Source: Oscillospiraceae bacterium
Lineage (GTDB): Bacteria; Bacillota; Clostridia; Oscillospirales; Oscillospiraceae
Assembly: GCA_017435525.1 (NCBI GenBank)
Contig: JAFSEW010000061.1
Location: forward strand, 1 to 62,666
Length of the DNA stretch: 62,666 bases
Direction of reading: 5' to 3'
Of the stretch, positions 5,012-62,666 are shown piece by piece. The position numbers and the translations under genes are program-made. The notes beneath the pieces were generated by a model, which was given only the letters and a program-made list of their open reading frames with translations, ran no database searches and was not told where the DNA came from. The first letter of the stretch is position 1. Every line of letters begins with the position of its first letter.

Positions 5012-5860
5012 TTAGGTTTCGTCCTCAGTGATCTCTCTGGCGATTACAACAAAGCGTCCATAATCCTGATAATGGTCGCAGGTAACCAGGGTAATCAGGT
5101 TATCATCCATTTCCAGTTCGAAGTCCAGATCGTAGTAAGACTTTTCCTTGTAAGCCTGCTCAGCTCTCTTCAGATCAGCCTCATCAATAGCATCCACAAA
5201 CTGGTAGAACTTGAAAACCATCTCATAACTGAAATACACGCGGTCACGGAAAGCTGCAATAACCTCATACTGGCGCTTCTCATACAGGGTGTTAAACTCA
5301 ACAATGGGATGTTCCTTCCAGAATTCCTCTTTCTCGTAATCCAGCAAACCGGCAAACATGGTGCCGTTGTTCATGTTGTGGGCGTAGATGATCAGGTTCT
5401 GGCTCTCAGGATCCATACTGCAGATGCCATCGATAAAGGGCAGACCGTAGGCATTACGCTTACCTTCAAAATTCATATGGATGTACTTCTCGGGATCATC
5501 CGGGGTATACATCACAGGATAGTCGATCTTGGTGTCTTCGATTTTAATCCAACCAACAAGATCAGGATTTTGCGCATAGAGGGAAGCCATATCTTCCATC
5601 ATCACAAGAGGAATCTCCTCAGTGGTTTCCGGAGGAATCGTCTCAGTCTCAGCAGGAGCGGTAGTTGTAGGTGCCTGGGTGGAAGGGGCAGTAGAGGGAG
5701 TGATATCAGGAATCTCAAAGTAGGGCTTTAAAATCAGCATGGCAGCAAGCACCAGGAACAGGACACCTGCAACAAAAATGAGGGTCCATTCCAGGTTGGT
5801 GAGCTTACGCTTTTTGCCGCTCTTGGGAGTTTCCTGACGCTTTTTGGGTTTGTTTTCCAT
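5012..5860 (-). CDS. srtB: Class B sortase
   Basis: 282 residues: a basic N-terminus, one membrane helix (~25-44), a Thr/Pro/Glu-rich stalk (52-84), then the sortase barrel. Catalytic residues are H161 in YAHNM, C261 in TLVTCDHYQDYGRF and R269. The DYPVMY and MNFEGKRNAYG segments are typical of SrtB. The enzyme cleaves a sorting signal at the membrane and links the protein to peptidoglycan or to another surface protein. It is last in an operon after a dockerin protein and a cohesin protein, and the cohesin protein ends in a fitting sorting signal, so that is its likely substrate. The SipW-locus subunit with PPQTGD at 60401-61306 may be another. SD AGGAG precedes the ATG. Confidence 0.92.
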   Translation of the reverse strand: MENKPKKRQETPKSGKKRKLTNLEWTLIFVAGVLFLVLAAMLILKPYFEIPDITPSTAPSTQAPTTTAPAETETIPPETTEEIPLVMMEDMASLYAQNPDLVGWIKIEDTKIDYPVMYTPDDPEKYIHMNFEGKRNAYGLPFIDGICSMDPESQNLIIYAHNMNNGTMFAGLLDYEKEEFWKEHPIVEFNTLYEKRQYEVIAAFRDRVYFSYEMVFKFYQFVDAIDEADLKRAEQAYKEKSYYDLDFELEMDDNLITLVTCDHYQDYGRFVVIAREITEDET

Positions 5861-47082: not shown

Positions 47083-47095
47083 GGAGGGTGCCGCT

Positions 47096-48292
47096 ATGTC
47101 TGAAAAGAAAGGCCCCCTGGCGGGACTGAAAGTCCTGGATCTGACCCGGGTGCTCTCCGGCCCCTACGGCACCATGTGGCTGGCCACCATGGGCGCGGAC
47201 ATTATCAAGATTGAAAACCCCAAAGACCCCGACACCACCCGAAACTATGTTCCCGGCATCAACGGCAAGAGCGCCTATTTCCCCACTGTCAATCACAACA
47301 AGCGGGGCATCACGTTGAACCTGAAGTCCGAAGCCGGTAAGCAGATCTTCCGGGATCTGGCTAAGGACGCGGACATTGTGGTGGAGAATTTCCGTCCCGG
47401 CGTTATGGACAAGCTGGGTCTGGGCTATGCAGCCCTTTCCGAGATCAACCCCCGGATCATCTACGCCTCCATTTCCGGCTACGGAACCTACGGTCCCTAC
47501 AGCCAGCGCCCCGGCTACGATGTGACCGCCCAGGCCATGAGCGGCATTATGCATCTGACCGGTTTCCCGGATTCTCCTCCCACCAGAGTGGGCTCCTCCA
47601 TCGGCGATACCCTGGCAGGTGAGACCATTGTGGTTGCCATTCTGGCTGCTCTCTATAACCGCAGTCAGACCGGCCGGGGTCAAATGGTGGAAACCTCCCT
47701 GGTGGACTGTCTGATCTCTTTGAGCGCCCAGGACTATGTCCGGTATTTTGCCGCCGGGGATGTTCCCATGAGAATGGGCAACATTTACAAGACCTGGACT
47801 CCCTACGGCAACTACAAAGCCAAGGACGGCTATTTCAATGTGGGTGCCTCCACCCCCAAGACCTTCCCGTCCTTCTGCAGAGCCATCGGGCATCCTGAGC
47901 TGGTGGAAGATCCCCGGTTCGCCAAGGAGCCCACCCGCATTGAGAACCGGGAGGCGCTGGATGTATATATCAATGAATGGGCCTCCAATAGAACCGTCAA
48001 GGAGATCATCGACATTCTGGTGCGCAACGATGTGCCCTGCGCGCCGGTGAACTCCATCGTAGAACTGGTGGAAGATGAACACATTGCCGGAGCCCGGGAC
48101 ATGTTCCCCCTCCTGGATCAGAAAGATGTCGGCCGGTTCCATGTGACCAATATTCCTGTTCGTTTCCACGAATCCGGCCTGGCCCCCCTGACCTCCTCTC
48201 CCGATCTGGGTGAGCACAACGAAGAAATCCTCATGGGAATCGGCAGAACAAAAGAAGAGATCGAACAGTACCGTGCAGACGGTGTCATCTGA
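47096..48292 (+). CDS. Class III CoA-transferase (CaiB/BaiF family), first copy
   Basis: 398 residues of the family III CoA-transferases: LAGLKVLDLTRVLSGPYGTM at the start, VGSSIGDTLAGETIV with the expected nucleophile D171, and NPRIIYASISGYGTYGP. These enzymes move CoA between carboxylic acids without ATP. It lies 13 bp after the thiolase and has GAGGAGGG as SD. A second, clearly diverged copy closes the operon. The pair may form a heteromer, as in BbsEF, or serve entry and exit of the pathway. Confidence 0.88.
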   Translation: MSEKKGPLAGLKVLDLTRVLSGPYGTMWLATMGADIIKIENPKDPDTTRNYVPGINGKSAYFPTVNHNKRGITLNLKSEAGKQIFRDLAKDADIVVENFRPGVMDKLGLGYAALSEINPRIIYASISGYGTYGPYSQRPGYDVTAQAMSGIMHLTGFPDSPPTRVGSSIGDTLAGETIVVAILAALYNRSQTGRGQMVETSLVDCLISLSAQDYVRYFAAGDVPMRMGNIYKTWTPYGNYKAKDGYFNVGASTPKTFPSFCRAIGHPELVEDPRFAKEPTRIENREALDVYINEWASNRTVKEIIDILVRNDVPCAPVNSIVELVEDEHIAGARDMFPLLDQKDVGRFHVTNIPVRFHESGLAPLTSSPDLGEHNEEILMGIGRTKEEIEQYRADGVI

Positions 48293-48308
48293 AAAGGAGA
48301 AAACGATT

Positions 48309-49160
48309 ATGAAGAACATTATGGTATGTGGCTCCGGTGCCATGGGCAGCGGTATCGCACAGGTTTCCGCTGCAGCCGGTTATACAGTATATCTCTGGGA
48401 TCTGACCACGGAAATTGCCCAGAACAGCAAGAATAAGATTGCGGCCGGTCTGGACCGGCAGATTGCCCGGGGCAAGATGAACGAAGAAGCAAAGGAAGCG
48501 CTGCTGAACAATCTGATTCCCTGCTGTGATTTTGCCGTGGCTGCCGATGTGGATCTCATTATGGAAGCCGTTCCCGAAAACATTGAGATCAAGAAGAGCA
48601 CCTACGCCAAGCTGGAGCAGTACTGCCGTCCCGATGCCATCATCGGCACCAACACCTCCTACATCCCCATCAGCACTCTGGCTGCGGATCTGCAGCACCC
48701 CGAGCGTTTCCTGGGCATGCACTTCTTTAACCCTGTGTATGCCATGAAGCTGCTGGAAATTATCCGCGGCGAAAAAACCAGTGACGCTGCATACGAAGCT
48801 GTTCTGGCCTTTGCGCCCACCATCAACAAAACCCCTGTTACCTGTCAGAAGGAGATCCCCGGCTTTATCGTCAACCGCCTCAATAAGGCTGTTCAGGCAG
48901 AAGCCATGCGCCTGCTCCACGAAGGTGTCGCTTCCTGCGAGGATATTGACACCGCCGCAAAGCTTGGCCTCAACTATCCCAAGGGCCCCTTTGAGATGAT
49001 GGACGGCAATCTGGAGCTGACCTACACCTGTCTGAATCTGCTGGTGGAGCTCACCGGTGAAGAGCGGTTCCGTCCTATCCCTGAGCTGGAAGCCCTGATC
49101 GCGGAAGGAAACTTCGGCCGCCGTACCGGCAAGGGCTGGTATGACTACTCCGAACAGTAA
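48309..49160 (+). CDS. 3-hydroxyacyl-CoA dehydrogenase
   Basis: 284 residues. VCGSGAMGSGIAQVSAAAG is the NAD-binding loop, LGMHFFNPVYAMKLLEI holds the catalytic histidine, and FIVNRLNKAVQAEAMRL and GPFEMMDGNLELTYTCL form the dimer domain. Length equals 3-hydroxybutyryl-CoA dehydrogenase. It would oxidise a 3-hydroxyacyl-CoA to the 3-keto form cleaved by the thiolase. The start is ATG 48309 with AAGGAG upstream; an upstream in-frame ATG at 48210 lies inside the CoA-transferase gene. Confidence 0.9.
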   Translation: MKNIMVCGSGAMGSGIAQVSAAAGYTVYLWDLTTEIAQNSKNKIAAGLDRQIARGKMNEEAKEALLNNLIPCCDFAVAADVDLIMEAVPENIEIKKSTYAKLEQYCRPDAIIGTNTSYIPISTLAADLQHPERFLGMHFFNPVYAMKLLEIIRGEKTSDAAYEAVLAFAPTINKTPVTCQKEIPGFIVNRLNKAVQAEAMRLLHEGVASCEDIDTAAKLGLNYPKGPFEMMDGNLELTYTCLNLLVELTGEERFRPIPELEALIAEGNFGRRTGKGWYDYSEQ

Positions 49161-49189
49161 AACTGCCTTGCAGAAAGGGGAGCAACATC

Positions 49190-50434
49190 ATGCAGCAAAC
49201 CGTTTACCCTGATACACCGACCAGCGAAGGCATGAAAAATGCCCTGCTGCGGGCGCAGCAGCTGGCAAAGCTCCGCTGGACCCCGGTGAAGCCCCTGCCT
49301 GCCATCGTTTCCACGGGCATTCCCGATGTGAGTCCCTACCATATCTTTCTGCCCGCTTACAAACCGCAGGTGGGCGCCAATTACGCCGCCGTGGGCTTTA
49401 CCAACGAAAAATATGTAGGCACCAATGTTTCCATCGAAACCTTTATGACCGCCCTGGCAAATCCCAACAGCGTGCTCTACACCCGGACGCAGCATGGCAA
49501 AAGCAAGCTGGCTTCCGCCTATTACGGCACGGTCTGCTCGGAATTTGCAAGCTTTGTACTGGGTCTGCCCTTCCATATCGACTGCCCGCAGTTTCCCAAT
49601 ATGAAAGAGTTTCAGCATATTGATTCCGGCGTTCTGGAGGATCTGCAGCTTTGCGACTTGCTGAATGAAGCCAAGACCCACACCGCCGTGGTAACCGGCA
49701 TCGACCGGGACAGCAGTGGAAAGGTGGTGCGCATCACCGTTACGGAAAGCACACCGCCCCGGGTGCAGGTTACGGAATTTCTCCCTGAAGAGTTTATCCA
49801 CTGGTGGTTTGACCGGGGTTACCAGGTACTGCGCTACAAAAAGCTCCACACCGTTCCCTATACCCCCAATCCCTGGGTGCCTCTGGTGGGCGACCCGGAG
49901 CTGCCTGCCCCTGTGCCCAATCCCGTAATCCTGCCGGATTTCGGCGACAAGGCCAACTACCGGCTCCCGGAATGCGTTACCTTCTCTGTATTTGACGCAT
50001 CTTACACAGAAGTGGCTGTGACCCAAAACGGAAAAACTGTCGTTTCTATGCCGGTTTCTTCGGAGGGAACCGCAGTTTTCCAGCCGGATACCCCCGGCTG
50101 TTACGAAGCCTTTGCCATCGGTGATGGTCAAAAGAGCAAGATCGTGGAATTCTGCGTCACGGAAGCCGCTGTCACCACCGACCGAACCCAGTATACGCAG
50201 GGGGAAGCGGTGCATCTGACTTTCACCTGCGCCCTTGGAGATACGCTGGTTGGCTTTATGGTAAAAACCGCCGATCATGCCAAGTACCTGGGTGTTCTGC
50301 GTTCTGATGACGGCATCCTTGCCGACACCGTTACGCTGCCCGCAGGCGATTATTATATCATCGCCCATTACCGCAACCGTTATGGCGTATACAGCGCCAC
50401 CCCCTCGCCTGTTTTTCACATCACCGGCGAATAA
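49190..50434 (+). CDS. Unrecognised protein with papain-like (NlpC/P60-type) N-terminal domain and Ig-like C-terminus
   Basis: 414 residues, not assigned to a named family. YYGTVCSEFASFVLG (C116) followed by THTAVVTGIDRDSSG (H164) has the spacing and flavour of NlpC/P60-like cysteine hydrolases. A beta-rich region follows, and the C-terminal third (~255-414) reads like two Ig-like strands-and-loops domains (ECVTFSVFDASYTEVAV; AVTTDRTQYTQGEAVHLTF). There is no signal peptide or membrane helix. Its place between the dehydrogenase and the second CoA-transferase, 29 bp and 15 bp away, makes it part of the operon. It could release the pathway acid from an amide or ester, but that is inference. Confidence 0.55.
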   Translation: MQQTVYPDTPTSEGMKNALLRAQQLAKLRWTPVKPLPAIVSTGIPDVSPYHIFLPAYKPQVGANYAAVGFTNEKYVGTNVSIETFMTALANPNSVLYTRTQHGKSKLASAYYGTVCSEFASFVLGLPFHIDCPQFPNMKEFQHIDSGVLEDLQLCDLLNEAKTHTAVVTGIDRDSSGKVVRITVTESTPPRVQVTEFLPEEFIHWWFDRGYQVLRYKKLHTVPYTPNPWVPLVGDPELPAPVPNPVILPDFGDKANYRLPECVTFSVFDASYTEVAVTQNGKTVVSMPVSSEGTAVFQPDTPGCYEAFAIGDGQKSKIVEFCVTEAAVTTDRTQYTQGEAVHLTFTCALGDTLVGFMVKTADHAKYLGVLRSDDGILADTVTLPAGDYYIIAHYRNRYGVYSATPSPVFHITGE

Positions 50435-50449
50435 GAGAGGATGAACCCT

Positions 50450-51658
50450 ATGTCAGCCAATCAGCTTCCCCCGCTGCATGGCATCCGGATACTGGATCTG
50501 ACCCATGTGGTATCCGGCCCTTACGCCAGCCGCTATCTGGCCTTGCTGGGTGCAGAGGTTATCAAAATCGAAAATCCCAAAACCGGCGGCGATATGACCC
50601 GGCTTACCGGCCCCTTTGCAGAAGATTGCAGCGTTCGGTTCTGCTCTTTGAATCACAACAAGCGCAGCGTCAGGCTGGATCTCTCCAAGCCGGAGGGGAA
50701 AGAAATTTTCCTGCAGCTTGTCCGGGTATCCGATGCCGTGATCGATAATTTCAAGCCCGGCACCACAAAAAAATTGGGGATCGATTTTGAAGCACTGAAG
50801 CAGGTCAATCCCAAAATCATATGCGGCAGTCTTTCCGGCTTCGGCGCTACCGGCCCGTACCGGAATTTCCCCGCCTACGATATTATCGCCCAGGCCATGA
50901 GCGGCATTCTGCTGCTCAACGGCACAGAGGATATGCCCCCCATCAAGATCGGAACATCCATGGCAGATATCATCGCAGGATTGAATCTGGTGATCGGTGT
51001 GCTGGCAGGCCTGCATAAGGCAAAGCAGACCGGCTGCGGCTGTCAGGTAGAAACCGATCTGGTGGACGGTCTTGTGAGCGCGCTGATGATGGAGTATGTG
51101 GGCTGCCTCTACACCGGCACCGCACCCACGCGTATCGGCAATGAATATCGGGAGTGGTGTCCCTCCGGCACATACAAAGCCCAGGATGGATATTATGTAC
51201 TGGCCGTAGGCCGGGATCAGGAGTTCTACCGCCTGGCAGCCCATGTGCTGGGTAACCCCGCCCTTGCGGCAGATCCCCGCTGCGCTACCCACAGCACCCG
51301 CGTTCAGAATCGGGCGCTGATAAACGACGCGCTGAATGCCTGGTCCCAGGATAAGCCTGTGGCAGAGGTTTGCAGGCTTCTGCAGCAGGCGCAGATTCCC
51401 TGCGCCCCTGTGCTGGATGTTCCTCAGGTTGTGCAAGACCCCCATATCCGGGATCACCGGGATATGTTCCCCAGCTATGAGCAGCCCAAAGCAGGCAAAG
51501 TAACCGTTACCAATATCCCGGTAAAGGTCGCCGATATGCAGTCCGTCCCCCTGTCACCCGCCCCTGAGATGGGACAGCACACCCGACAGGTGCTGCAAAA
51601 ACTGCTGCAGCTGGATGATCAGACGCTATCACGCCTGGAGAAGGCCGGTGTAATCTAA
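50450..51658 (+). CDS. Class III CoA-transferase (CaiB/BaiF family), second copy
   Basis: 402 residues with LHGIRILDLTHVVSGPYASR, IGTSMADIIAGLNLV (expected nucleophile Asp, ~173) and NPKIICGSLSGFGATGP. It is the same family as 47096-48292 but clearly diverged, so not a recent duplication. ATG 50450 is preferred because GAGAGG lies 9 bases upstream; ATG 50441 directly abuts that SD. Last gene of the acyl-CoA operon. Confidence 0.88.
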   Translation: MSANQLPPLHGIRILDLTHVVSGPYASRYLALLGAEVIKIENPKTGGDMTRLTGPFAEDCSVRFCSLNHNKRSVRLDLSKPEGKEIFLQLVRVSDAVIDNFKPGTTKKLGIDFEALKQVNPKIICGSLSGFGATGPYRNFPAYDIIAQAMSGILLLNGTEDMPPIKIGTSMADIIAGLNLVIGVLAGLHKAKQTGCGCQVETDLVDGLVSALMMEYVGCLYTGTAPTRIGNEYREWCPSGTYKAQDGYYVLAVGRDQEFYRLAAHVLGNPALAADPRCATHSTRVQNRALINDALNAWSQDKPVAEVCRLLQQAQIPCAPVLDVPQVVQDPHIRDHRDMFPSYEQPKAGKVTVTNIPVKVADMQSVPLSPAPEMGQHTRQVLQKLLQLDDQTLSRLEKAGVI

Positions 51659-51871: not shown

Positions 51872-52399
51872 TCAGGGCGCACTTGTGATCTGACCCGCGG
51901 TAATGGCAACACGCCAGCTGCCCGTAACGGCCTCTTCCGGCTTGCTCTGGATGGCATCGGCAAAGACTTCCACAACCTGCAGGCAGCCATCTTCTTCAAC
52001 CAGGGTTATGCTGCCGCTGAGAAGATTAGGCGTGGCTGCATCGGGAGCAATGGGTTTCGAATAATAGTAGGTGTTGTCAGAGCCCACAACCCAACCGGCA
52101 GCTACGGTCACCGCCGGCATTTGGGAGGGCTTTGAAACGATATTTCCATTGCCGTCTACCCAGTAGGATACCAGCCGCAGCCGCAGATAGGCATCGATAT
52201 TGCCGGTGTTTTTTACGGCTATTTTGGTTTTTGTCTGTTCGTTGAAGATTTCCTCAACGGTACATGCCACATAAGCCGCTTCCAGCTGGTTGTTCACAGA
52301 CTGGGTCTGGCGATACATCAGCGCGAATGTGGTGCCGCAGAGCAGAACCAGCACAATGGACAGAATGAAAATCGCTGTTTTCAGGATTTTTCTTTCCAT
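51872..52399 (-). CDS. Small membrane/secreted TasA-like protein
   Basis: 175 residues. A membrane or signal helix (~6-27) is followed by a beta-sandwich-like region with AVKNTGNIDAYLRLRLVSYW (~61-80) and GCLQVVEVFADAIQ. The phrase NTGNIDAYLRLR is typical of TasA/camelysin-like and related SipW-dependent proteins, although the cleavage-site region FALMYRQTQS is not canonical. It lies 3 bp after the giant adhesin gene and is last in the locus, so it may be a minor fibre or capping subunit. Confidence 0.6.
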   Translation of the reverse strand: MERKILKTAIFILSIVLVLLCGTTFALMYRQTQSVNNQLEAAYVACTVEEIFNEQTKTKIAVKNTGNIDAYLRLRLVSYWVDGNGNIVSKPSQMPAVTVAAGWVVGSDNTYYYSKPIAPDAATPNLLSGSITLVEEDGCLQVVEVFADAIQSKPEEAVTGSWRVAITAGQITSAP

Positions 52400-52402
52400 A
52401 GA

Positions 52403-55400
52403 TCAGGCTCCTTTCCGGTTCACTACCAGCTGACTGTTGCCGTCCAACCAATGGTCGTCCGACACTTTATCGCTGAAAATGACTTTCTCGCCTACTTCAT
52501 CGACCTCTACGGTTTTGCTCTCATCCTGTTCGTCATACCGCCAGGACCAGAGGTTCTTCTGGGTCACGGTGTAGTTTCCGGGCAGCAGATTATGGATTGT
52601 GGTGCTGCTGTTTCCCACAACCGTCACTGTGATGATCTTGCCTTCGGAATCCTTTACCTCGTAGACAAACACCTGGTCTTCTTCCGCGTTGGTCTTTTCG
52701 ATAGTCAGGTCAAAGAGCTTGTACTGATTCGTCATGGTAATGCCCGTGGTCTGGTCCGCCGCAATGGTAACTTTGCGGTTGTTCCCCACCGCGGTGTAGA
52801 TCGCCGGGATATCCACTTCCGTTACCGTACATTCGCCTGCAGGCAGATTCTCAATGAGGATACTTTCCCCGTCCTTGAGCCAGGCAGTCAGCTGCACCTT
52901 GCCGGAGGATGTCTCTGTAACTGCAAGTTCGACAGGCGTCTGCTCCCCATTCTTGTCGTAATGGGTAGCGGGGAAATCACGGCTGCTGCCCTTTGGCGTG
53001 AACGCAATCTGGAACTGGAAGGTATCCGCCGGATTCTTCTGGATTCCGCTTGCAGCCTGGACGGTTTTGGTGATTTTCAGCTTGCCCCTATGCACAGGGT
53101 AGGTATTGACACATTCCAGGCGGGGCTCCGCGTCGGTGGTGATCACCACTTCCGCGCTGACAGAGCCATCATCGGGGTTGGCAACGGGGAACGAACTGGC
53201 GTAGCCTTCGCTGAAGGATTCTGCCACCACATAGCTGCCCACAGGCAGATCTTCGACGATCACATGCTCGTTATGCTTCAGTTGGAAGGTAAACCGGCCA
53301 TTCTCGTCCACCGTCACGCTTGCAAGGGTCGCGTGTTCTTTGACCGCATAGGTTTTTCCTGCGAAGAAATTCTCCGGCTTATCGGTGGGCATCTGGACGG
53401 TGAAGGTAAACTCGGCAGCTTCATCAATCTCAGCGCCGCTGTCGGGCACGATTTGGATCATCTTGCTCACATACAGATTACCGGTGGTACGCTTGACGGT
53501 ATTGACAAAGGTTACCAATGCCGGGCCTTCCACAGGCGCCACAGTTACCGTTGCGCTGTAGCCTGTTTTGCCGTTTGCCGTAGTGGTGTAAGTGCCGCCC
53601 AGCGCACTGCCGTCGTTTTCCGTAACGGTGTAGCTGCCGGCGGGTACATTGGCGATTTCAATGGTCACCTCAGGGTTTGCACTGCTCACTTCCACATCCT
53701 TGATTACGATAGAATGATCGTTGGCCGGGTATGCAACTTCGTTTCCGCCGTTGATGCTGACCATATATTCCTTACCGTCGCGATTCAGAGCATCGCTGGT
53801 AATGGTGAAGCTGAAGCGGTCCCCGGTCCAGGTATCGCCGGAGAATTCTTTTTCCACCTTTTTGACGATCTTCAGATTACCCACAGGATACTGGTTGGTG
53901 CAGATAACCTCTGTGGTCTCACCCTGGGTAACCTCAACGGCACCGGACGGGGAGAAGCTGCTTTCAAAGCCGGGCACCGGGGTCTCTGTGACCGTATACT
54001 GGTATTTGTTGGTGGAAGGGCCCTGGGGCAGGCCCTCGATCAGGGCGCTCTCGCCGTCCTTGAGGTAGAATTTCAGCTTACCCTCAGTGGCCGGAATCAC
54101 CTGCTTATTTCCGCCGATGGTCACAGAATAGCTTTCGGCGATCCCATCAGGAAGATGGAGGGTAAATTCAAAGACCTGGTCGGAGGGAACCGGTGCATTG
54201 CTGTTAATGATCTCAATGTCCTTGGTCACCCGCAGATTGCCGGTCACCGGCACATAATAGACCGTGATGATGTTTTTGCTGATACGGTCCGGATTGTTTT
54301 CCACCGCAATGGTACAGCCAGTGGCAGCATGGTAGGCATAGCCGTCAATGGTTTTCCGATCTGCTTCCGACGCAGTGATAGCATTGCCGTAATAATCCAT
54401 ATAGTCCGGGCCGGAAACGGGGTCTGCCAGAACCTTATTGGTGCCCAGTTCCAGATAACGGATCTCATAGGGATACAGGTTGCGCCGGTAGTAGAGTTTC
54501 AGCTCCAGTTCCTGACCCACAGAAGACAGGGTGCCTTCCAATTTTGTGCCGGGTACTGTGGCATCGTAGGTAAAGCCCTCGATAGTCACCGGGGATTCCG
54601 AATAAGACAGGACTTTGTTACCCTCAATCAGCACTTCGTTGGCATAGCTGTAGTCCCGGCTGGGTGTCCAGGTGGGCGCCGCACCTTCCGATGCGGGGAT
54701 ATCTTCCAGGTAGTGGTTGACCCGGAGGAACGCATGGGTGGTATTGGGCCGGTACCAGAAGATGATGGTGTTATCCGCGCCGGTTTCAACGCTTATGATC
54801 AGAGCCTTCTGGAAATCGTCAGGCCGGTATCCGGGTACCATCACATAGTTTTCCACCACTTCCGATTGCTTGGTGGATACGGTTTTGCTGGGACGGACGG
54901 ATACATTCACCTGGTTGCCGTTTCCATCCGTTTTATACACAGGATTTCCGTCGAGATCCAGCTGATAGTAATGTACCGTGTAGGGCACAGCCTCTTTCTG
55001 GACATATTCGAAGGTATAGACAGCTGCTCCGTCCTGTTCGATGTTCAGGGTGATACTGTGGCTCTTGGTCAGGGGGAAGTAGCCCTCGCGGTAGCCGAGA
55101 TAGAGTTCGCTGCCACCTTTGGCGTTAAAGGTCTTGGTGCTGCCTGCCAGGGCGCTGCCCACAGTGGGGCTGGCGATCTCGATTTCGTTTCCTTCTGCAT
55201 CCTTGGTCACATAGCGGATGGTGTAGTTCTTCAGAACATTGGAGCTCCACTTTGCGTAGAGATGCATGCCGTCCTTAACGGGCATATTGGCAAAGTCGAA
55301 AGCCTGTTCTTTGCCTTCACTGTCCCGGTAGAACCAGCCGATAAACTGATAGTCGCCGTTGGTGGGGTCCGCAGGCCGCTGGGCTTCCGGCACCAGCTCA

Positions 55401-58400
55401 CCATGAGGAATCCAGAATTCCACTTCGTACTCGCTGCCTTCATCGGCACGGTCTTCCGTCAGGAAAACGCGGACATGGTGAACCACAGGAGTCCAGTTTG
55501 CGTAAACCGTCAGGGCTTCACCCGGCATTGTGATGTTGTCCTGGTCCACTCTGGTTTCAGGCTCGAACTGGGCGGAAGTATACCAGCCTTCAAATTCGTA
55601 AGCACCGGGTTCCAGGGTATCGGGATAGTATTCCGGTTTGGCGATCAGGTCATTGGCACCCTCATAGGTGGTGCCGTTGACGGTAGTGCCTTCAAAATAC
55701 TTCTTCAGGGGCTCATTGTACGCAACCATGGAACCGGTTCCGTCGGTTAGATGGTCATTCCAGTTCCAGAAACTGAGGCGGTACTTCTTTGCATTGTAAA
55801 AGAAGTTTATCTCATAGGCTTCCTTATACAATGTCTCATCAAAATCAGTTAATTCTTCATAAGTATAGCCCGCCTTCTCATAACCCACCAGGGAAACCTG
55901 CGTCTGTTCCGCAACAGTAGAGTTGTCACAGGTATCGTAGCTGTCAGACAGATAATAGGTTTTTCCATTTCTGCTGATGGTGGTTTTTCCGGTCAGATCC
56001 TGACCGCCATAAGCTTCCAGGTAGATGTTGTACCGGTAAAGCTCCGGCACGCTCCAGCCGATGTTTGCACCGTTTTCCCAGAAGCAGAGGTAAGAAACAG
56101 TATCCTCATCGGTATATTTGGAGTGGAACAACAGATTCTCGTCAAGTCTTTCGTATATACCCTTAATCGTTTCATTACTATTGTCCTGGGAATACTTTAC
56201 ATGATGCTCACCGTTCCAGGCGCTCACGAAGGCTTCCGTTCCGCTCCAGCCATTGGCGTTATTCTTGTCTGTTCTGGTAGCAGAGTTGAATACCGCGCAG
56301 GGCCACATACCTGAAATATCATCACCATATCTTGCATTGAAGGAAATATAGTGATAGGTCACCGCTGTTCCATTGTGGGTGAACACTTCGGTTCCATGGG
56401 TGTAATTCTTTTTCTGGCCATTTTCATTCAGGGTAGGCAGCGAAGAAATCTGTCCCCATTGGTTGGCATAGTTCCAATACTCATTCTCCAGCAGGGTTTC
56501 ATCATCAGATGTATCGGGACCCCAGGAGCCAAAGTAATAGCTAGTACCGCCGACAATTTTAATGGTATCGTAGGTATCCGGATTCTTGTCCGCATCGTTT
56601 TCCGTGCCGCCGGTAGTGGCTGCGTAATAAAACCGCAAGGTATATTCCTTATAGCGGTAATACACATTGACGACCGAAGTGCCGTTACCGGCAATAACAA
56701 CATTTTGATCTGTTGTATAGCTTGCATCGTCTGTGGGGCCTATGTACTCCAGATAGGTCGTATCCTCATAACAGGTATCATCATGGGTATGTTCCCGGCA
56801 GGTTCTGTTGACATCCTTATGGGTCTTGCCAATGTTCAGCTTGTATTTTTCCACAGTCAGGTCGCCTGCTGCGCCGGTACCCAGCACATCACCTTCGATA
56901 ATCTGGTCAATCTCGGCCTCGGTTGCCGGAGTATTTCCGGCACCTATACCGTTTATGGTATAGTAGTTGCCGTTCAGATAAATCTTCGGCCACAGGGTTC
57001 CGTTACTTGCCCGGATGACATAAACATAACCAGCCTCAGGGTCATTACTGCCCTCAATCGCTTCAATGACTGCTCTGCCATCATCCTGCGGGTCGTTGTC
57101 GTCCACATCGAAGCAGGCTGTCGTATGGGCGTTACCACAGCTGTAGCACTCGTCCGTATGCCGGTGATCGGCTTCGTTGCCGCAGATGACGCTGCCCTTC
57201 AGATCATCTTTGCCGCTCACCGTGTCACCGGAAGTGCCCAGCTCAACACGGGAGCCAATCAGAGATCTGGTGCCGTCGTCATTGATGTACCAATAGGACA
57301 CCTTATAGGTGGTATTCACTGCTTTCCAAGTAGCGCGGAATGTGCCGCCGTTGACGGGCATAGTTTCGGGGATAGAAATAATATTACCGTTCGTGTCTGT
57401 CCATCCGGCAAATGCATAGCCGGCACGAATAGGCGTTGCTACCTCAATGGGCATGCCGTAGCGGGCGTAGATGGGTTCTACGCCGTAGCCGCCGTCCAGG
57501 TCAAAGGTCATCAGGTAGTAGTACCGGTCGAAGTACATTTCCACTTCGGTACTGCCGTCCGCAGCCACTTCGGGCATTTCGTGCAGCAGCGGATAGAAGC
57601 CTTCGTATTCCAGCTTCACGCCGTCAGGCTGCTCCTGCGTAAAGTCCGGCACCAGAGAGCCGGTCAACGCGTAGCGGGTAATGGTATCGGGCAGACGGGT
57701 GTAGCCGTCGTTTTCCACATTCTGCAGGTACACCACGATCTCGTAGGGCACCTCAGCAGGCAGATAGTACACCGTCAGTTCCACGTCCTCAGTCAGGGTT
57801 CTGGCAGCGAATTCATCCTGGCGCTCCGGTTCGCCCTCGGCATTGATGATATAGGGCAGATAACCCTCCACAGCAGGATACCGGATGGGATTCTGCACCA
57901 CGCCGGTAGCGCCGACAGTAATGGAGTCGGTACTGGCAGCAGTTTCGCCATTGCGGAACAGATAGTGAATGGTTACAAGGTAAGTCCTGGTGTCGCCCTC
58001 GCCGGGTTCGCCGTCTGCCAGGGTTGTGGCAGCGGTATAGGTAACCTGCACTTCAGGCAGCTGCTCAACTTCATTGGAAAGCTCTGCAACACCCTCAGTA
58101 GGCTCTGTGGTCTCCTCAGTAGGCTCCGTGGTTTCCTCGGTGGGCTCCGTAGTTACCTCGGTGGGCTCTGTGGGCTCCGTGGTTTCTTCGGTGGGCTCCG
58201 TGGTTTCCTCAGTGGGCTCCGTAGTTTCCTCGGTGGGCTCCGTGGTTTCCTCGGTGGGCTCCGTAGTTTCCTCGGTGGGCTCCGTAGTTACCTCGGTGGG
58301 CTCCGTAGTTACCTCGGTGGGCTCTGTGGGCTCCTCGGTGGGCTCCGCGGTTTCCTCGGTGGGCTCCGCGGGTTCCTCGGTGGGCTCGGTGGGGTCTTCC

Positions 58401-59176
58401 GCGTCAGGGGCGACGGGGATCACACGGGGCTCCAGGGTAATGGTCAGAGCCTCGCTGACAGATTTTGTATCCCCCGCGGTGGTAACGCAGCGCACCTGAG
58501 CCTGATAATTGCTATCCAGCAAAGATGCCACCATACCATAGGTCAGGGTCAGGTCCGGCTGGTCTTCGCCGTAGATATTGACCCACAGTTCTGTTTCCCG
58601 GTCAGCCAGAATCTGCCACTGATACGCCACTGCACCGGTCAAAGTCGTGGCAGCGGACAAGGTGGGCTTGTCAAACTGAGGCATGGTCAGCTGCTGGGCT
58701 TCCACACCGTCAACAAACACCTTGGTGGTATCCCCGACGCTTTCGTGGCCGCCGCAGTCAGGCTTGCCGCAAATATCGCAGCCATCCAGGAACGCCAGGG
58801 AATCGCCCATAGCTTCTTCGCCCACATAGTCCTGCAGAACCCAGGGCATTGCGGGCCAGTCTTCCTGAGCTTCCGGAATCACACCGCCGGCATAGAACTC
58901 AACCGCATACCACAGGCTCTGGGTTTCGGAATCCAGATACCAGTCAGTAATTTTGAAGATCGTTCCGGGCTCGAATTCTTCGTAGGCAAAGTACATGTCG
59001 TTACCTGTGGAGATATCTGTAAAGTTACCAACCTGCAGGCCATAGCCGTCCTCGGCAATCACCGCATATCTGCCCACATTGGCACCGTAGCTTCCGTCTT
59101 CTGCAGCTACTGCGCCGACGAACATCGTCATCAGCATACTAAGGCACAAGAACAGTGCCACGATTCTCTTTTTCAT
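52403..59176 (-). CDS. Giant secreted adhesin (2257 aa) with Thr/Glu/Pro stalk, InlB-type repeats and pilin isopeptide domains
   Basis: Signal peptide (~1-25, GAVAAE); N-terminal beta domain; Ig-like region (~150-250); PTE repeat stalk (~260-360); MucBP-like and InlB/Flg_new-type repeats (FDLDGGYG ~555; later FEGWYTS and FIGWFYRD); a histidine/cysteine-rich CYSCGNAHTTACF segment; a long unassigned middle; then five C-terminal beta-sandwich repeats starting near residues 1642, 1765, 1895, 2030 and 2158. Four start GNLRVTK or GKLKITK-like and the last FDLTIEK; most end in TNQY-like motifs, as in pilin isopeptide-linkage domains with Lys, Glu and Asn. No sorting signal or membrane anchor ends the protein (QLVVNRKGA). 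It is probably a host- or mucus-binding fibre tip held by the TasA-like proteins around it. Confidence 0.85.
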   Translation of the reverse strand: MKKRIVALFLCLSMLMTMFVGAVAAEDGSYGANVGRYAVIAEDGYGLQVGNFTDISTGNDMYFAYEEFEPGTIFKITDWYLDSETQSLWYAVEFYAGGVIPEAQEDWPAMPWVLQDYVGEEAMGDSLAFLDGCDICGKPDCGGHESVGDTTKVFVDGVEAQQLTMPQFDKPTLSAATTLTGAVAYQWQILADRETELWVNIYGEDQPDLTLTYGMVASLLDSNYQAQVRCVTTAGDTKSVSEALTITLEPRVIPVAPDAEDPTEPTEEPAEPTEETAEPTEEPTEPTEVTTEPTEVTTEPTEETTEPTEETTEPTEETTEPTEETTEPTEETTEPTEPTEVTTEPTEETTEPTEETTEPTEGVAELSNEVEQLPEVQVTYTAATTLADGEPGEGDTRTYLVTIHYLFRNGETAASTDSITVGATGVVQNPIRYPAVEGYLPYIINAEGEPERQDEFAARTLTEDVELTVYYLPAEVPYEIVVYLQNVENDGYTRLPDTITRYALTGSLVPDFTQEQPDGVKLEYEGFYPLLHEMPEVAADGSTEVEMYFDRYYYLMTFDLDGGYGVEPIYARYGMPIEVATPIRAGYAFAGWTDTNGNIISIPETMPVNGGTFRATWKAVNTTYKVSYWYINDDGTRSLIGSRVELGTSGDTVSGKDDLKGSVICGNEADHRHTDECYSCGNAHTTACFDVDDNDPQDDGRAVIEAIEGSNDPEAGYVYVIRASNGTLWPKIYLNGNYYTINGIGAGNTPATEAEIDQIIEGDVLGTGAAGDLTVEKYKLNIGKTHKDVNRTCREHTHDDTCYEDTTYLEYIGPTDDASYTTDQNVVIAGNGTSVVNVYYRYKEYTLRFYYAATTGGTENDADKNPDTYDTIKIVGGTSYYFGSWGPDTSDDETLLENEYWNYANQWGQISSLPTLNENGQKKNYTHGTEVFTHNGTAVTYHYISFNARYGDDISGMWPCAVFNSATRTDKNNANGWSGTEAFVSAWNGEHHVKYSQDNSNETIKGIYERLDENLLFHSKYTDEDTVSYLCFWENGANIGWSVPELYRYNIYLEAYGGQDLTGKTTISRNGKTYYLSDSYDTCDNSTVAEQTQVSLVGYEKAGYTYEELTDFDETLYKEAYEINFFYNAKKYRLSFWNWNDHLTDGTGSMVAYNEPLKKYFEGTTVNGTTYEGANDLIAKPEYYPDTLEPGAYEFEGWYTSAQFEPETRVDQDNITMPGEALTVYANWTPVVHHVRVFLTEDRADEGSEYEVEFWIPHGELVPEAQRPADPTNGDYQFIGWFYRDSEGKEQAFDFANMPVKDGMHLYAKWSSNVLKNYTIRYVTKDAEGNEIEIASPTVGSALAGSTKTFNAKGGSELYLGYREGYFPLTKSHSITLNIEQDGAAVYTFEYVQKEAVPYTVHYYQLDLDGNPVYKTDGNGNQVNVSVRPSKTVSTKQSEVVENYVMVPGYRPDDFQKALIISVETGADNTIIFWYRPNTTHAFLRVNHYLEDIPASEGAAPTWTPSRDYSYANEVLIEGNKVLSYSESPVTIEGFTYDATVPGTKLEGTLSSVGQELELKLYYRRNLYPYEIRYLELGTNKVLADPVSGPDYMDYYGNAITASEADRKTIDGYAYHAATGCTIAVENNPDRISKNIITVYYVPVTGNLRVTKDIEIINSNAPVPSDQVFEFTLHLPDGIAESYSVTIGGNKQVIPATEGKLKFYLKDGESALIEGLPQGPSTNKYQYTVTETPVPGFESSFSPSGAVEVTQGETTEVICTNQYPVGNLKIVKKVEKEFSGDTWTGDRFSFTITSDALNRDGKEYMVSINGGNEVAYPANDHSIVIKDVEVSSANPEVTIEIANVPAGSYTVTENDGSALGGTYTTTANGKTGYSATVTVAPVEGPALVTFVNTVKRTTGNLYVSKMIQIVPDSGAEIDEAAEFTFTVQMPTDKPENFFAGKTYAVKEHATLASVTVDENGRFTFQLKHNEHVIVEDLPVGSYVVAESFSEGYASSFPVANPDDGSVSAEVVITTDAEPRLECVNTYPVHRGKLKITKTVQAASGIQKNPADTFQFQIAFTPKGSSRDFPATHYDKNGEQTPVELAVTETSSGKVQLTAWLKDGESILIENLPAGECTVTEVDIPAIYTAVGNNRKVTIAADQTTGITMTNQYKLFDLTIEKTNAEEDQVFVYEVKDSEGKIITVTVVGNSSTTIHNLLPGNYTVTQKNLWSWRYDEQDESKTVEVDEVGEKVIFSDKVSDDHWLDGNSQLVVNRKGA
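58095..58396 (-). repeat. PTE tandem repeat in the adhesin stalk
   Basis: About 17 Pro-Thr-Glu units, mainly a 7-residue (21-bp) unit TTEPTEE/V with a few shorter steps. The DNA is nearly identical between units, so copy number could change by slippage or recombination. Confidence 0.9.
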
Positions 59177-59210
59177 ATTCCTGTGCCTCCTTTTCTTTCA
59201 TATTTTTTCC

Positions 59211-59834
59211 TTATTTCAGCTTATCCCAGGCCGTTTCCGGGGTCAGGGAGCCGTCGTTCTGGATCACACTGGCCTGGAAGGAAATATTCAGCTTATCCAG
59301 GCTCTGGATATTACTTTCCTTAATATCCTTGCTCACATGAATCACGCCGTCCCGGATAATATCCACATCCGTAAGGGCTGTATTGGTATCCAGCACTCTG
59401 TAATATACATACTGCGTTCCCGGCAGGTAGTTCCAGCCATCCGCCATGCTCCAGTTCAGCTGGGTATCTTTCATAAAGTTTTGATTATCCGGTGTATCCC
59501 AGCCGGGGGCGGATACCTCCACAAACACGATGGTGTCCACCTCACTGGCCTCGAAGCTGAGGGTCACTTTCTTGCTCAGATCCACACCGGGGATGATTTT
59601 GGCAGTTTTCGTGCCGTCGGATTCCACGAAGTCACCGGTTTCCGTCAGGGTCAGATCCCCGAAGGTGGCCACTCTGGCGCTGTCGCTGCCGGTTGCGGAT
59701 GTGATATACCGGGCGAAGAGGCCGCCCATCATGGAAGTGGTGATCAGCACCAGGCAGAACAGCACACCGGCCAGCCACATCATGCCTTCGCCAAATCCCA
59801 TGGAGGATTTTCTTTTACGCGATTCTTTTGACAC
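59211..59834 (-). CDS. SipW-dependent TasA-like surface protein
   Basis: 207 residues. The N-terminal helix ends GGLFARYITSATGSDSARVA, the SipW-type cleavage region found in TasA/camelysin relatives. It is followed by a TasA-like beta-sandwich (FGDLTLTETGDF, VTLSFEASEVDTIVFVEVSA, WNYLPGTQYVYYRVL, LDKLNISFQASVIQ). It lies 22 bp after the SipW gene and 34 bp before the adhesin gene. Probable fibre subunit or adapter that carries the adhesin. Confidence 0.75.
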   Translation of the reverse strand: MSKESRKRKSSMGFGEGMMWLAGVLFCLVLITTSMMGGLFARYITSATGSDSARVATFGDLTLTETGDFVESDGTKTAKIIPGVDLSKKVTLSFEASEVDTIVFVEVSAPGWDTPDNQNFMKDTQLNWSMADGWNYLPGTQYVYYRVLDTNTALTDVDIIRDGVIHVSKDIKESNIQSLDKLNISFQASVIQNDGSLTPETAWDKLK

Positions 59835-59856
59835 TGAAAATCCTCCTTCCTGTCAT

Positions 59857-60408
59857 TTACTCCTGCTCAGCTTTCAGCCGACGGATCTCGGCTTTGATTT
59901 GCTCCAGCTCGTCCTCGTCTTTTTTCTTTTCCTTGCGCAGCGTCAGCTCTGACAGCAGCAGCGCGCCGCCCACCAGAATCACCGTGGCCACGGGGCTTTT
60001 CAGCAGCCGGGCAATACGGCCTGCGCCGGGAATCCAATGCACCACCTTGCCCTTGATCATTTCCTTGCGGATGGGGGCATCGGGGGCATTGTTGGCATCC
60101 CCCTGGGTAATGACGGTATCCGGCTCCACCGCGATGATGCGATGCACCACCACCATGCTGCCGCTCTGATAGGCCACAATATCATTTTCCTTATAGTCTT
60201 CCTGCTCCGTTACGATGATCAGATCATCGATATGGATGGTAGGCTCCATGCTGCCGCTGAGCACCACAGCCACACCGCAGCCGAAGGGCATGGGCAGGGA
60301 ATTTCCCATGAGGCTTTTGGCATTCCAGCTATAGAGGTTCACGCCCACCACAGCGCCGGCAATCACCAGCAGCACAATGCGCATAACGGCTTTCCATTTT
60401 TTAAGCAT
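59857..60408 (-). CDS. sipW: SipW-type (ER-type) signal peptidase I
   Basis: 183 residues. A membrane helix (~8-25), catalytic S53 in VVLSGSMEPTIHI and H89 in SMVVVHRI replace the Ser-Lys dyad of ordinary signal peptidases, so this is the SipW/ER type. A second helix (~138-152) and a charged coiled tail (LRKEKKKDEDELEQIKAEIR) follow. It should process the TasA-like proteins encoded on both sides. It overlaps the anchored-subunit gene by 8 bp. Confidence 0.9.
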   Translation of the reverse strand: MLKKWKAVMRIVLLVIAGAVVGVNLYSWNAKSLMGNSLPMPFGCGVAVVLSGSMEPTIHIDDLIIVTEQEDYKENDIVAYQSGSMVVVHRIIAVEPDTVITQGDANNAPDAPIRKEMIKGKVVHWIPGAGRIARLLKSPVATVILVGGALLLSELTLRKEKKKDEDELEQIKAEIRRLKAEQE

Positions 60409-61306
60409 GCTTCTTCTCCCGTTCTTTCCACGCCATTGCCAGAAGCAGCAGCAGGCCTGCCAGCGACAGGAACATCAGCACACCGTAGAGCAGAATGTGG
60501 CTCTCGTCGCCGGTCTGGGGCGGGTAGCCGCCGGGGTCATCGTCGCTATAATAGGAGGCACCGGTGCGGATGGCAACCGTCAGGGTAATGTCGTTCTCCA
60601 CCGCCAGATTGCCCAGCATGGTGTCGTAAGCGTCGTCCAGTTCAAAGGGCCATTCCCAGTTCAGGGTATAGGGCTGCAGATACCCGGCATCGATGGTGCC
60701 GCTTTCGCGCACCTCTTTCAGCCGCAGCACATCCACCATTTCCTCTTCACTGCCCAGCAGATAGTAGCCCTCGTAATCGGAAACGGAAGCGTAGATGGGG
60801 ATGGGATACTCCCCGTGGGAGAACCAGGCTTCCATTTCCATAGTGTATTTCAGGGGCACATTGCCGGTATTTTCCAGGGTGAAGCGGTAGGAGCTGCCGG
60901 TGCCGGGGGCCAGAACCTTGACACCGTCCCGGCTGCGGACGGTAGTCTCGCCGGAGTCATTGTCATAGGTAATACTGAAGATCTGCACATCCGTTTCGCC
61001 GCTCCACACGGTGTTTTCGTCATAGGTCTGGAAGCCGGGCATGGCGGTGAGCAGGGTGCCGTTGGGGAGCATATTGCGCAGGCTGTCATAGGTAACGCTG
61101 CCGTCTGCCTGCCGCTGGCCCACATGCACCCGGGTAGTGCCTGTGCTTTTGGTCAGGGGAATGTAGTGCTGGGTATCGGGGGCGGTAAATGCCGCCAGGC
61201 GGCTTACCAGCATGGTGGTGGTCAGCACCACGCACAGGATCATGGCGATTACCGCTGCGTAGGTGCTGCGCTTATTCTGTTTCCGCAGGCTGGAATACTC
61301 GTTCAC
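60401..61306 (-). CDS. SipW-associated surface protein with sortase-type C-terminal anchor
   Basis: About 301 residues from a GTG start at 61306, chosen because AAGGAGGAG lies just upstream; the longer ORF reads through the intergenic repeat. A membrane helix (~18-40) precedes a TasA-like beta region (SSYRFTLENTGNVPLKYTME, YTLNWEWPFELDDAYDTMLG, ITLTVAIRTG), sharing the NWEWPFE / TWEWPFS and DTxLG motifs with the 61597-62262 protein. The C-terminus reads YPPQTGDES, a hydrophobic helix and KEREKKH, a class B-type sorting signal. It probably anchors the fibre base to the wall, with the sortase at 5012-5860 a candidate enzyme. Confidence 0.78.
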   Translation of the reverse strand: MNEYSSLRKQNKRSTYAAVIAMILCVVLTTTMLVSRLAAFTAPDTQHYIPLTKSTGTTRVHVGQRQADGSVTYDSLRNMLPNGTLLTAMPGFQTYDENTVWSGETDVQIFSITYDNDSGETTVRSRDGVKVLAPGTGSSYRFTLENTGNVPLKYTMEMEAWFSHGEYPIPIYASVSDYEGYYLLGSEEEMVDVLRLKEVRESGTIDAGYLQPYTLNWEWPFELDDAYDTMLGNLAVENDITLTVAIRTGASYYSDDDPGGYPPQTGDESHILLYGVLMFLSLAGLLLLLAMAWKEREKKHA

Positions 61307-61369
61307 AGCGGCTCCTCCTTGCTTTTTGTATGGTTTCTGTCCTTGCAAAAGCGAAAACTGAGGGTTGGG

Positions 61370-61485
61370 CACCATTGTCATTTCGAGGCCGTTTACGCCC
61401 GTGGGAATCCGCGCTGTAAGGGGTATTACGGATTGCCACGCATCTTCGATGCTCGCAATGACACTCTGAAGGAAATGGCGTGGGT
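61370..61485. repeat. Degenerate intergenic palindromic repeat
   Basis: The element opens with TTGTCATTTCGAGG and GGAATCC-like sequence and closes with GGATTGCCACG and TCGCAATGACA, forming an imperfect inverted repeat. It resembles a family of dispersed intergenic elements in Clostridia genomes (recalled, not searched). It separates the TasA-like gene from the anchored-subunit gene. Confidence 0.6.
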
Positions 61486-61522
61486 GCGGCACTTCCCGCT
61501 TTTGCAAATACGGAAATAACCC

Positions 61523-61556
61523 GGGCACCCGACCCAGCCACGAAGGCCGGGTGCCC
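61523..61556 (-). terminator. Possible terminator or attenuator after the first TasA-like gene
   Basis: A 9-bp GC-rich stem (61523-61531 / 61548-61556) with a 16-base loop. The U-tract is poor, so read-through into the downstream fibre genes is plausible. Confidence 0.55.
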
Positions 61557-61596
61557 ATAGTTTGATTAGGTGCTAAAAGATCTTAAGTACTAAGAA

Positions 61597-62262
61597 TTAG
61601 TCGATCTGAGTTGCAGTGGTAGTAACGGTCAGCTGAACGGTTGCAGCATTGCCGACAGCAGCGGCATCGCCCAGAGCAGTGTCCTTCACATCGTTATCGG
61701 CGGAAGTGGAGAAGGGCCATTCCCAAGTAATAGCCAGGGAATCAGCAGCAACAGTAGACAGATCGGTGCCTGCGGGATAATCCTTGGAATATGCGGCAAT
61801 CGCATTGTTCACAGACAGCTCAAAGTCAGCAGCGCTGGTGTATGCACGGCCGTCAAAAGCGGTACCATTGACCTTGATCACCAGGGGGCAATAGTAGGTG
61901 CCATTGCCATCGACCCAGTTATCGCTGATGTCAAAAACACCAACATAGTTGATTCTGACAGCGACCTCAGGAGTACCGGACAGGGTCATGGAAGCCATCT
62001 CGCCATCAGTACCGGGAGCGACGACCTTATCGGTGGAAATTACGGAATTTGCTTCGGTAAAGACAGCATCATCAGTAGCATATTCCTTAGCAAAGGTATC
62101 ACCATTAGCAGTAATGGCAACGCCCCACTTAGCAACGCGGGCAGAATCGGTGCCCTCGCCCTTGGACACATACTTAGCGTAAGTGCCGCTGATGGCGCTG
62201 GTGGAGATCAGGACTGCAACCAGCAGGAAGCAAGCCAGTCTCATCATAACATTCTTCTTCAT
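61597..62262 (-). CDS. SipW-dependent TasA-like major fibre subunit candidate
   Basis: 221 residues. A long signal ends AISGTYAKYVSKGEGTDSAR, the SipW-type pattern, then VAKWGVAITANGDTF opens a TasA/camelysin-like beta-sandwich with VAVRINYVGVFDISDNW and SLAITWEWPFS. Calcium-rich loops are suggested by SADNDVKDTALGD. It is first in the locus, has a strong SD (AAGGAG) and is followed by a partial terminator, as expected for the most abundant subunit. TasA forms donor-strand-linked biofilm fibres in Bacillus; the same role here is inference. Confidence 0.8.
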   Translation of the reverse strand: MKKNVMMRLACFLLVAVLISTSAISGTYAKYVSKGEGTDSARVAKWGVAITANGDTFAKEYATDDAVFTEANSVISTDKVVAPGTDGEMASMTLSGTPEVAVRINYVGVFDISDNWVDGNGTYYCPLVIKVNGTAFDGRAYTSAADFELSVNNAIAAYSKDYPAGTDLSTVAADSLAITWEWPFSTSADNDVKDTALGDAAAVGNAATVQLTVTTTATQID

Positions 62263-62450
62263 TTTGTTTTCTCCTTTCAGGTAGAAATTCTTTACTCCCC
62301 GACGGGGATAGGTTTACCGGGCAATGATGCCCATTGTTTTTTGGGCTTCCGCCCGGTTATTTATCTCTCCCCGCCGTGGCTTTCGGAGAGGGGATAACAA
62401 ATTGGTTTGATTTCCGCAAAGGGAAATCCAGGCCCGCAGAAAACCTCTGT
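62263..62450 (-). promoter_or_regulatory. Leader region of the fibre locus
   Basis: The long 5' region upstream of the TasA-like gene contains GC-rich pairings: CTCTCC/GGAGAG near 62375-62395, and a CCGGGC...GCCCGG long-range pairing (~62317-62358) enclosing a GCCC/GGGC helix. No clear sigma-A promoter or known riboswitch was identified, but the folding potential suggests a regulated leader. Confidence 0.35.
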
Positions 62451-62666
62451 CATTCTGAGCGCAGCAAAGAGGAGCTGCGGGTCCTTCGACTCGCTGTGCT
62501 CGCTCAGGACGACGGAGATGGAATTGGCTTTCCCCATTTTTCTGTCATTCTGAGCAAGCCGAAGGCGCGTCGAAGAATCCGTAACCTTTTGGGGAAGTCG
62601 CGGGGATGCGGGTCCTTCGACTCGCTGCGCTCGCTCAGGACGACGGAGATGGAATTGGCTTTCCCC
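62451..62666. repeat. Tandem intergenic palindromic repeats at the window edge
   Basis: A 60-bp segment occurs twice with one mismatch (62476-62535 and 62607-62666), each containing the palindromic core TTCGACTCGCTGxGCTCGC. TCTGTCATTCTGAGC occurs at 62451 and 62541. These look like dispersed intergenic repeats; the array may continue outside the window. Confidence 0.8.

Follow-up and report, generated by a model that had tools for sequence, protein, structure and literature searches.

The window analyzed here, the whole 62,666-nucleotide contig JAFSEW010000061.1 of an Oscillospiraceae bacterium (assembly GCA_017435525.1, forward strand), carries a locus of six genes that all lie on the minus strand and run from position 62262 to 51872. 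They encode a SipW-like signal peptidase, small proteins of the SipW-dependent type and an adhesin of 2257 residues (Table 1). In this gut bacterium the conserved gene set probably makes a thin surface fibre, of which one end would bear the large sticky protein and the other would be fixed to the wall. The genes themselves, together with the match of the peptidase to TIGR02228, bear out the sequence-only reading in its account of a six-gene locus with an endoplasmic reticulum (ER)-type peptidase and a giant adhesin.

The peptidase and the small proteins

The peptidase scored 72.7 bits against TIGR02228, above the cut-off of 51.85, and 59.3 against the SipW model of Bacillus (NF046067), far under the cut-off of 190. 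The earlier claim of four TasA-like or SipW-associated proteins holds at the level of the family, but not at that of each protein's own model matches. The 175-residue protein matched TIGR04090 (BsaA; 6.6e-12) over residues 7-86, a stretch that includes the signal peptide, with a score of 45.7 that does not reach the cut-off of 60, and neither the 207-residue nor the 221-residue protein alone matched any relevant Pfam or NCBIfam model. TIGR04090 matches all 22 members of the subunit alignment A5 (E up to 0.01, with the curated cut-off not applied), PF12389 (TasA/camelysin) matches 12 of the 22 at E up to 0.05 (best 1.1e-6; window protein unmatched), and the 207-residue protein matches the family profiles tasfam (3e-30) and A7 (2e-11). 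Genes resembling the 221-residue subunit are also present in two related loci, L109 and L111.

The fourth small partner carries PPQTGD and a membrane anchor, as had been read from the sequence, although its start was then placed at 61558; the likeliest start is a GTG at 61306, which follows an AGGAGG-like site and gives 301 residues. Its signal scored 19.6 against the sortase-B-target model TIGR03063, passing the cut-off of 18.15, and its alignment (A9) is related to the 221-residue subunit family (A7) by hhalign (98.2%, E 3e-14).

Ribosome-site-like stretches precede the starts of all six genes, more weakly for SipW, whose start overlaps the preceding gene by 8 bases. The contig end (62666) lies 404 bases upstream of the first gene, so the 5' side and any upstream genes are missing from the window. 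Two near-identical stretches of about 60 bases were seen by eye there, upstream of the first gene at 62420-62666.

Table 1. Positions of the genes of the proposed fibre locus, adhesin regions and associated features (window positions unless a locus is named)
Feature	Position	Strand	Basis or remark
SipW-dependent-type subunit, 221 residues, A7 subfamily, AKYV..DSARVAKWG	61597..62262	-	A7 alignment; first gene, contig-end side
Sortase-signal protein, 301 residues: SipW-family-related domain, PPQTGD, membrane segment and basic tail; candidate root of the fibre	60401..61306	-	
ER/archaeal-type signal peptidase I (SipW-like), 183 residues	59857..60408	-	TIGR02228
SipW-dependent-type subunit, 207 residues, ARYI..DSARVATFG, immediately 5' of adhesin	59211..59834	-	Family profiles
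Adhesin, 2257 residues, without sorting signal	52403..59176	-	
Adhesin, Pro/Thr/Glu repeat stretch, about residues 262-361	58094..58393	-	
Adhesin, best of three Listeria-Bacteroides B-repeats, residues 1163-1226	55499..55690	-	
Adhesin, four CnaB/DUF7601 domains, residues 1646-2154	52715..54241	-	Isopeptide K/E/N present (by eye)
Adhesin, terminal, proposed docking domain, residues 2155-2257, WSWRY	52406..52714	-	Alignments A2, A3, A6
Terminal domain, WLDG tail, residues 2243-2246	52439-52450	-	
BsaA-type SipW-dependent subunit, 175 residues, immediately 3' of adhesin; proposed terminal-domain adaptor	51872..52399	-	TIGR04090, sub-cut-off
Class B-like sortase, about 54 kb from the locus on the same contig	5012..5860	-	TIGR03064, 131.5 bits, under 153.75 cut-off
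Inverted-repeat segments between tyrosine recombinase and SipW	L035:3472-3776, L074:3140-3391, L084:4138-4425, L109:3099-3375		
Long-type recombinase with perfect inverted repeats about 1.4 kb apart	L071:3890-5333, L073:4058-5497, L085:3902-5367		

The adhesin and its terminal domain

The adhesin begins with an ordinary signal peptide (by eye) and matched DUF7601 in four stretches, B-repeats (Flg_new) in three and SpaA once. It had been described as carrying five isopeptide domains and no sorting signal. The second part stands: none of the adhesins of 35 loci, the window included, has a C-terminal membrane segment, and the sorting signal expected of a sortase-pilus adhesin is absent. The first part requires correction, as the isopeptide Lys/Glu/Asn triad is intact, by eye, in four of the five CnaB domains, whereas the fifth, terminal domain has lost it (Glu to Gln, Asn to Asp). 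The window is an exception in this respect within alignment A6 (19 sequences), where every sequence has the Lys and almost every one has the Glu and the Asn; the Lys of the terminal domain is lost in the same-genus relatives L036, L037 and L038.

The other features of the terminal domain recur widely. WSWRY or a close variant is found in 35 of 35 loci, a W-L tail in 33 and the fuller W-L-x-G in 25, with the tail tryptophan no more than 23 residues from the end in 29. Variant tails are W-V in L090 and W-I-D-G in L103, which keeps its BsaA-type gene. A reading of L090, the only locus with no BsaA-type gene directly after the adhesin, as having lost its tail was softened on these grounds. Among eight adhesins whose heads were scanned, five have vWA, two have B-repeats and one has neither, all with the same terminal domain; adhesin heads vary while the C-terminal end is kept. 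The A6 domain weakly matches the vWA proteins 7w6b, 7vcn and 7vcr in the PDB (E 0.001-0.003), and this likeness, weak and by sequence, is to their last domain (7w6b, E 0.001).

Six same-genus adhesins end like that of the window. A profile of about the last 105 adhesin residues was searched against 147 genomes of the order and then 299 of the phylum. In the order it gave 13 strong and 20 weak matches. Of the strong ones, ten have an over-cut-off SipW no more than 9 kb away; genomes G100 and G153 have SipW on other contigs, and the match of G140 is near a contig edge. The weak matches, mostly partial and to other CnaB domains, never share a contig with an over-cut-off SipW (0/20). At phylum level, two genomes beyond the order hold three strong matches, each with SipW within 9 kb. 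The terminal domain, defined by WSWRY, a W-L-x-G-type tail and no sorting signal, marks one locus type.

A recurrent locus type

The 35 loci compared had all been selected by their adhesin or by its terminal domain, and their gene neighbours were counted in six frames; duplicates (L075, L112, L039, L040), a locus with no adhesin (L108) and the 3-kb loci L041-L070 were excluded. A BsaA-type gene lies directly 3' of the adhesin in 34 of them, at gaps of -249 to 22 bases; in the exception, L090, the family gene is upstream. A family gene is found no more than 900 bases upstream of the adhesin in 28 of the 35 loci, and 28 also encode, within 9 kb, a family member that has a membrane segment at its C-terminus. 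Nineteen of these anchors have a clear TG motif, four an xTGQ variant and five none. Three of the seven anchor-less loci, L082 (truncated at the edge of its contig), L087 and L107, show an A8-family match with no membrane segment.

The anchors fall into two types, the window's A9 and a commoner A8 that has a conserved VMPGD stretch. A9-type anchors also occur in L109 (LPETGD) and L111 (motif degenerate), and L109 repeats the gene order of the window with a second peptidase and a recombinase upstream. The idea of a TasA-like nature for every anchor was given up for A8, which an iterative hidden Markov model run had drawn in and to which profile comparison gave no support. A comparison of locus order across Oscillospirales had been proposed as a check, and it found the suggested architecture again: an unanchored adhesin, SipW-family subunits and a membrane-anchored protein, mostly bearing a sortase motif, recur together in the order and in two genomes outside it.

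Co-divergence of gene pairs

We compared pairwise locus distances for the upstream subunit (U), the terminal domain (T), the downstream BsaA-type subunit (B) and the anchor (A), which lie in the order U, T, B, A. The four-gene test used 18 of 34 loci, the others being near-duplicates or loci with no gene of the required type; L090 entered none of the distance tests. In these 18 non-redundant loci the correlations were 0.76 for T-B and 0.70 for U-A, against 0.34-0.40 for the cross pairs U-T, U-B, T-A and B-A. None of the five bootstrap differences computed includes zero, and when single loci are left out T-B and U-A stay at 0.66 or above and the cross pairs at 0.48 or below. When the N-terminal part of the adhesin was included (24 loci), T-B reached 0.84 and the N-terminal part correlated with B at 0.24; a three-gene test with the window (26 loci) gave 0.77 for T-B, 0.34 for T-U and 0.27 for B-U. 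Adjacency alone is insufficient as an explanation, because the neighbors B and A correlate at 0.34 while the non-neighbors U and A reach 0.70. The distance comparison points to specific partnerships, of T with B and of U with A.

Interpretation and alternatives

On balance, and with modest confidence, we regard a SipW-dependent fibre to which the adhesin docks through its C-terminal domain, and whose root is fixed by sortase, as the best explanation of the locus. In this model SipW would trim the small subunits, and their polymerisation may follow, probably through the kind of strand exchange described for TasA. The adhesin would be exported through its ordinary signal peptide, and the CnaB-like domain at its C-terminus, which bears WSWRY and the W-L-x-G-type tail, would attach to the adjacent BsaA-type subunit B, placing the adhesive head at the fibre tip. 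At the other end, the anchored protein, a SipW-family subunit with a sortase signal, would root the shaft subunit U in the wall. The mixture of TasA-fibre and sortase-pilus logic suggested by the sequence-only reading is thereby partly supported, by the recurrent architecture, by the kinship of the PPQTGD protein to the subunits and by the hints of specific partners from co-divergence.

Several observations weigh against this model. The pair test is weakened by its rank correlations (T-B 0.47, U-A 0.72, cross pairs 0.11-0.29), where T-B is low, by nearest neighbors, which coincide for T-B in 12 of the 18 loci, in 9 of 18 for U-A and in 6-7 for the cross pairs, and by another upstream gene, W, that correlates at 0.57 with T and 0.50 with B (17 loci). 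Even the cross pairs correlate more than shuffled data do (Mantel p 0.0008-0.0018), an outcome expected from shared history, and the four-gene test does not include the window locus. T and B are adjacent, so joint transfer of the adhesin 3' end with B could raise their correlation. As to sequence kinship, the subunit profile A5 found no solved structure by sequence, TasA included; its match to A7 (93.6%) comes from an alignment that starts inside the signal peptide; and profile comparison showed no kinship of A8 with the subunits (2.5%) or with the window anchor A9 (0.3%). Three of the 13 strong terminal-domain matches in the order have no SipW on their own contig. In Clostridium perfringens a sortase gene beside a SipW operon is already known, and srtB is not needed for BsaA polymers (PMC7395162).

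Five of the 28 anchors, moreover, have no TG motif, and seven of the 35 loci show no anchored protein. A rival reading is a biofilm-matrix locus. Its subunits would form free matrix polymers like those of BsaA in C. perfringens, the adhesin would be secreted along with them as part of the matrix, and the PPQTGD protein would be an independent surface protein. The seven loci with no anchored protein fit this reading, and BsaA polymers are described as mainly extracellular, forming without srtB, BsaB or BsaC (PMC7395162). We nevertheless think this rather unlikely, given that an anchored family protein is present in 28 of the 35 loci, that U and A co-diverge although they are not neighbors, and that all 35 loci have one adhesin each, with varied heads and a kept end. 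That kept end could itself be read differently, as a new type of signal for surface retention, by which the adhesin would be held on the wall or membrane directly, with no fibre; the domain is indeed C-terminal, conserved and at the position of a sorting signal. The adhesin has no membrane segment, however, and the BsaA-type gene that follows directly in 34 of 35 loci co-diverges with the domain, which makes this an improbable account.

The sortases of the genome bear on one further possibility, a sortase-assembled pilus built by a class C enzyme acting from elsewhere in the genome. Two class C sortases score over their cut-offs on other contigs of the same genome, and the locus combines CnaB domains with a PPQTGD protein. 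A class B sortase over its cut-off, also on another contig, speaks instead for the fibre model with a sortase-fixed root. Against such a pilus, both class C enzymes sit on other contigs and the 301-residue protein alone carries a sorting signal in the window; we consider it very improbable. Sortases were located at C52, C54 (two) and C55:5036-5548, and no sortase, class C included, was found in the locus as cut by the contig end. The class B-like sortase on the window's own contig, outside the locus, is a possible enzyme for the PPQTGD protein.

Relation to known systems

Sortase pili with vWA tip adhesins carry an adhesin that ends in LPXTG. The present locus resembles them in its one large adhesin, the CnaB stalk and the vWA head of five of the eight relatives scanned, and differs in that the WSWRY...W-L domain replaces LPXTG and the locus is without a pilus sortase.

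SipW/BsaA and TasA fibres are already known. The sipW-bsaABCRSD locus of C. perfringens shares the SipW peptidase, a BsaA-family subunit and a nearby sortase B gene with ours, but PMC7395162 describes for it neither a giant adhesin that ends in a domain of this kind nor a sorting signal on any BsaA-family protein. SipW-dependent subunits, with donor-strand exchange as a likely model, are common to tapA-sipW-tasA of Bacillus subtilis, for which PMC9674648 and PMC10151520 name neither an adhesin gene nor a sortase signal; TapA starts the fibre, was thought to help in anchoring and is not conserved even within Bacillus (PMC9674648, PMC10151520). The TasA-CalY-CapP system of Bacillus cereus likewise has SipW-type matrix filaments with an accessory protein, but that protein is chaperone-like, and the system is described as sortase-independent with no mention of a large adhesin (PMC13082335).

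We found no description of a SipW locus with such an adhesin, or with an anchored SipW-family subunit, in the open-licence PMC text searched, and in that text the way TasA-type fibres are held on cells, and whether they have adhesins of their own, appear unsettled. The locus supplies a candidate for each fibre end, and each pair is testable with purified proteins; its layout may show how fibres hold adhesins and remain on the cell. In uncultured gut bacteria, the terminal domain would allow fibre adhesins to be recognized from sequence. More speculatively, and as a possibility that we hold to be short of probable, the WSWRY...W-L-x-G domain may be a docking module that works without sortase and passes exchangeable adhesins on to a BsaA-type adaptor, itself the end piece of a strand-exchange fibre, with a SipW-family sortase-signal subunit as root. 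This would be a third Gram-positive route to a tip-adhesin pilus, phase-variable in several species.

Recombinase genes upstream in relatives

A tyrosine recombinase lies upstream of the SipW genes in 11 of 36 loci searched in six frames, not all of which may reach far enough upstream. A short type occurs in L035, L074 with its duplicate L075, L084 and L109, and a long type in L071, L072, L073, L078, L085 and L110; L088 has a cut-off piece. L072 comes from Merdimmobilis hominis An559, a cultured relative. Between the short-type recombinase and SipW, perfect inverted repeats of 21-23 bases, spaced 208-263 bases, are present in L074/L075, L084, L109 and L035. In L071, L072, L073 and L085 repeats of 14-24 bases flank the entire long-type gene; in L071, L073 and L085 they are perfect and about 1.4 kb apart, so the segment would invert with its own gene. 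L110 yielded no such repeats and L078 just one of 13 bases, in a scan that ended short of SipW.

The segment of L035, from the window's genus, contains a 12-of-12 match to a sigma-70-type promoter consensus directed away from SipW, an orientation that would fit the off state of an invertible promoter. Two 9-of-12 matches lie in the L074 segment, and none was found in those of L084 and L109. No flipped copy was seen, the L074 and L075 segments having the same orientation. The repeat-flanked segments make phase-variable fibre operons possible.

The core site of the putative switch, ACATAATNNNNATTATGT, is present in 25 of the 147 order genomes (e.g. at L116, L121 and L122), against zero matches for a reversed control pattern, and is absent from the window's own genome. 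Fifteen of these genomes have it as inverted pairs whose starts are separated by 157-519 bases, and copies lie no more than 150 bases from a contig start in G058, G099, G115, G160 and G166. This looks like a widespread inversion system of the order. The idea of a recombinase switch special to SipW loci was dropped, as just two of the 25 genomes have the site no more than 2 kb from an over-cut-off SipW.

Neighboring genes

Adjoining the fibre locus at 45904-51658 are genes for a thiolase and for two family III CoA-transferases, together with one that by eye resembles a 3-hydroxyacyl-CoA dehydrogenase gene; they probably belong to an unrelated acyl-CoA pathway. Near the fibre locus of a relative (L078:12438-14166), short open reading frames with repeated FQSTLPVRGAT and ISIHAPREGSD are perhaps, judged by eye, a translated CRISPR-type repeat array.

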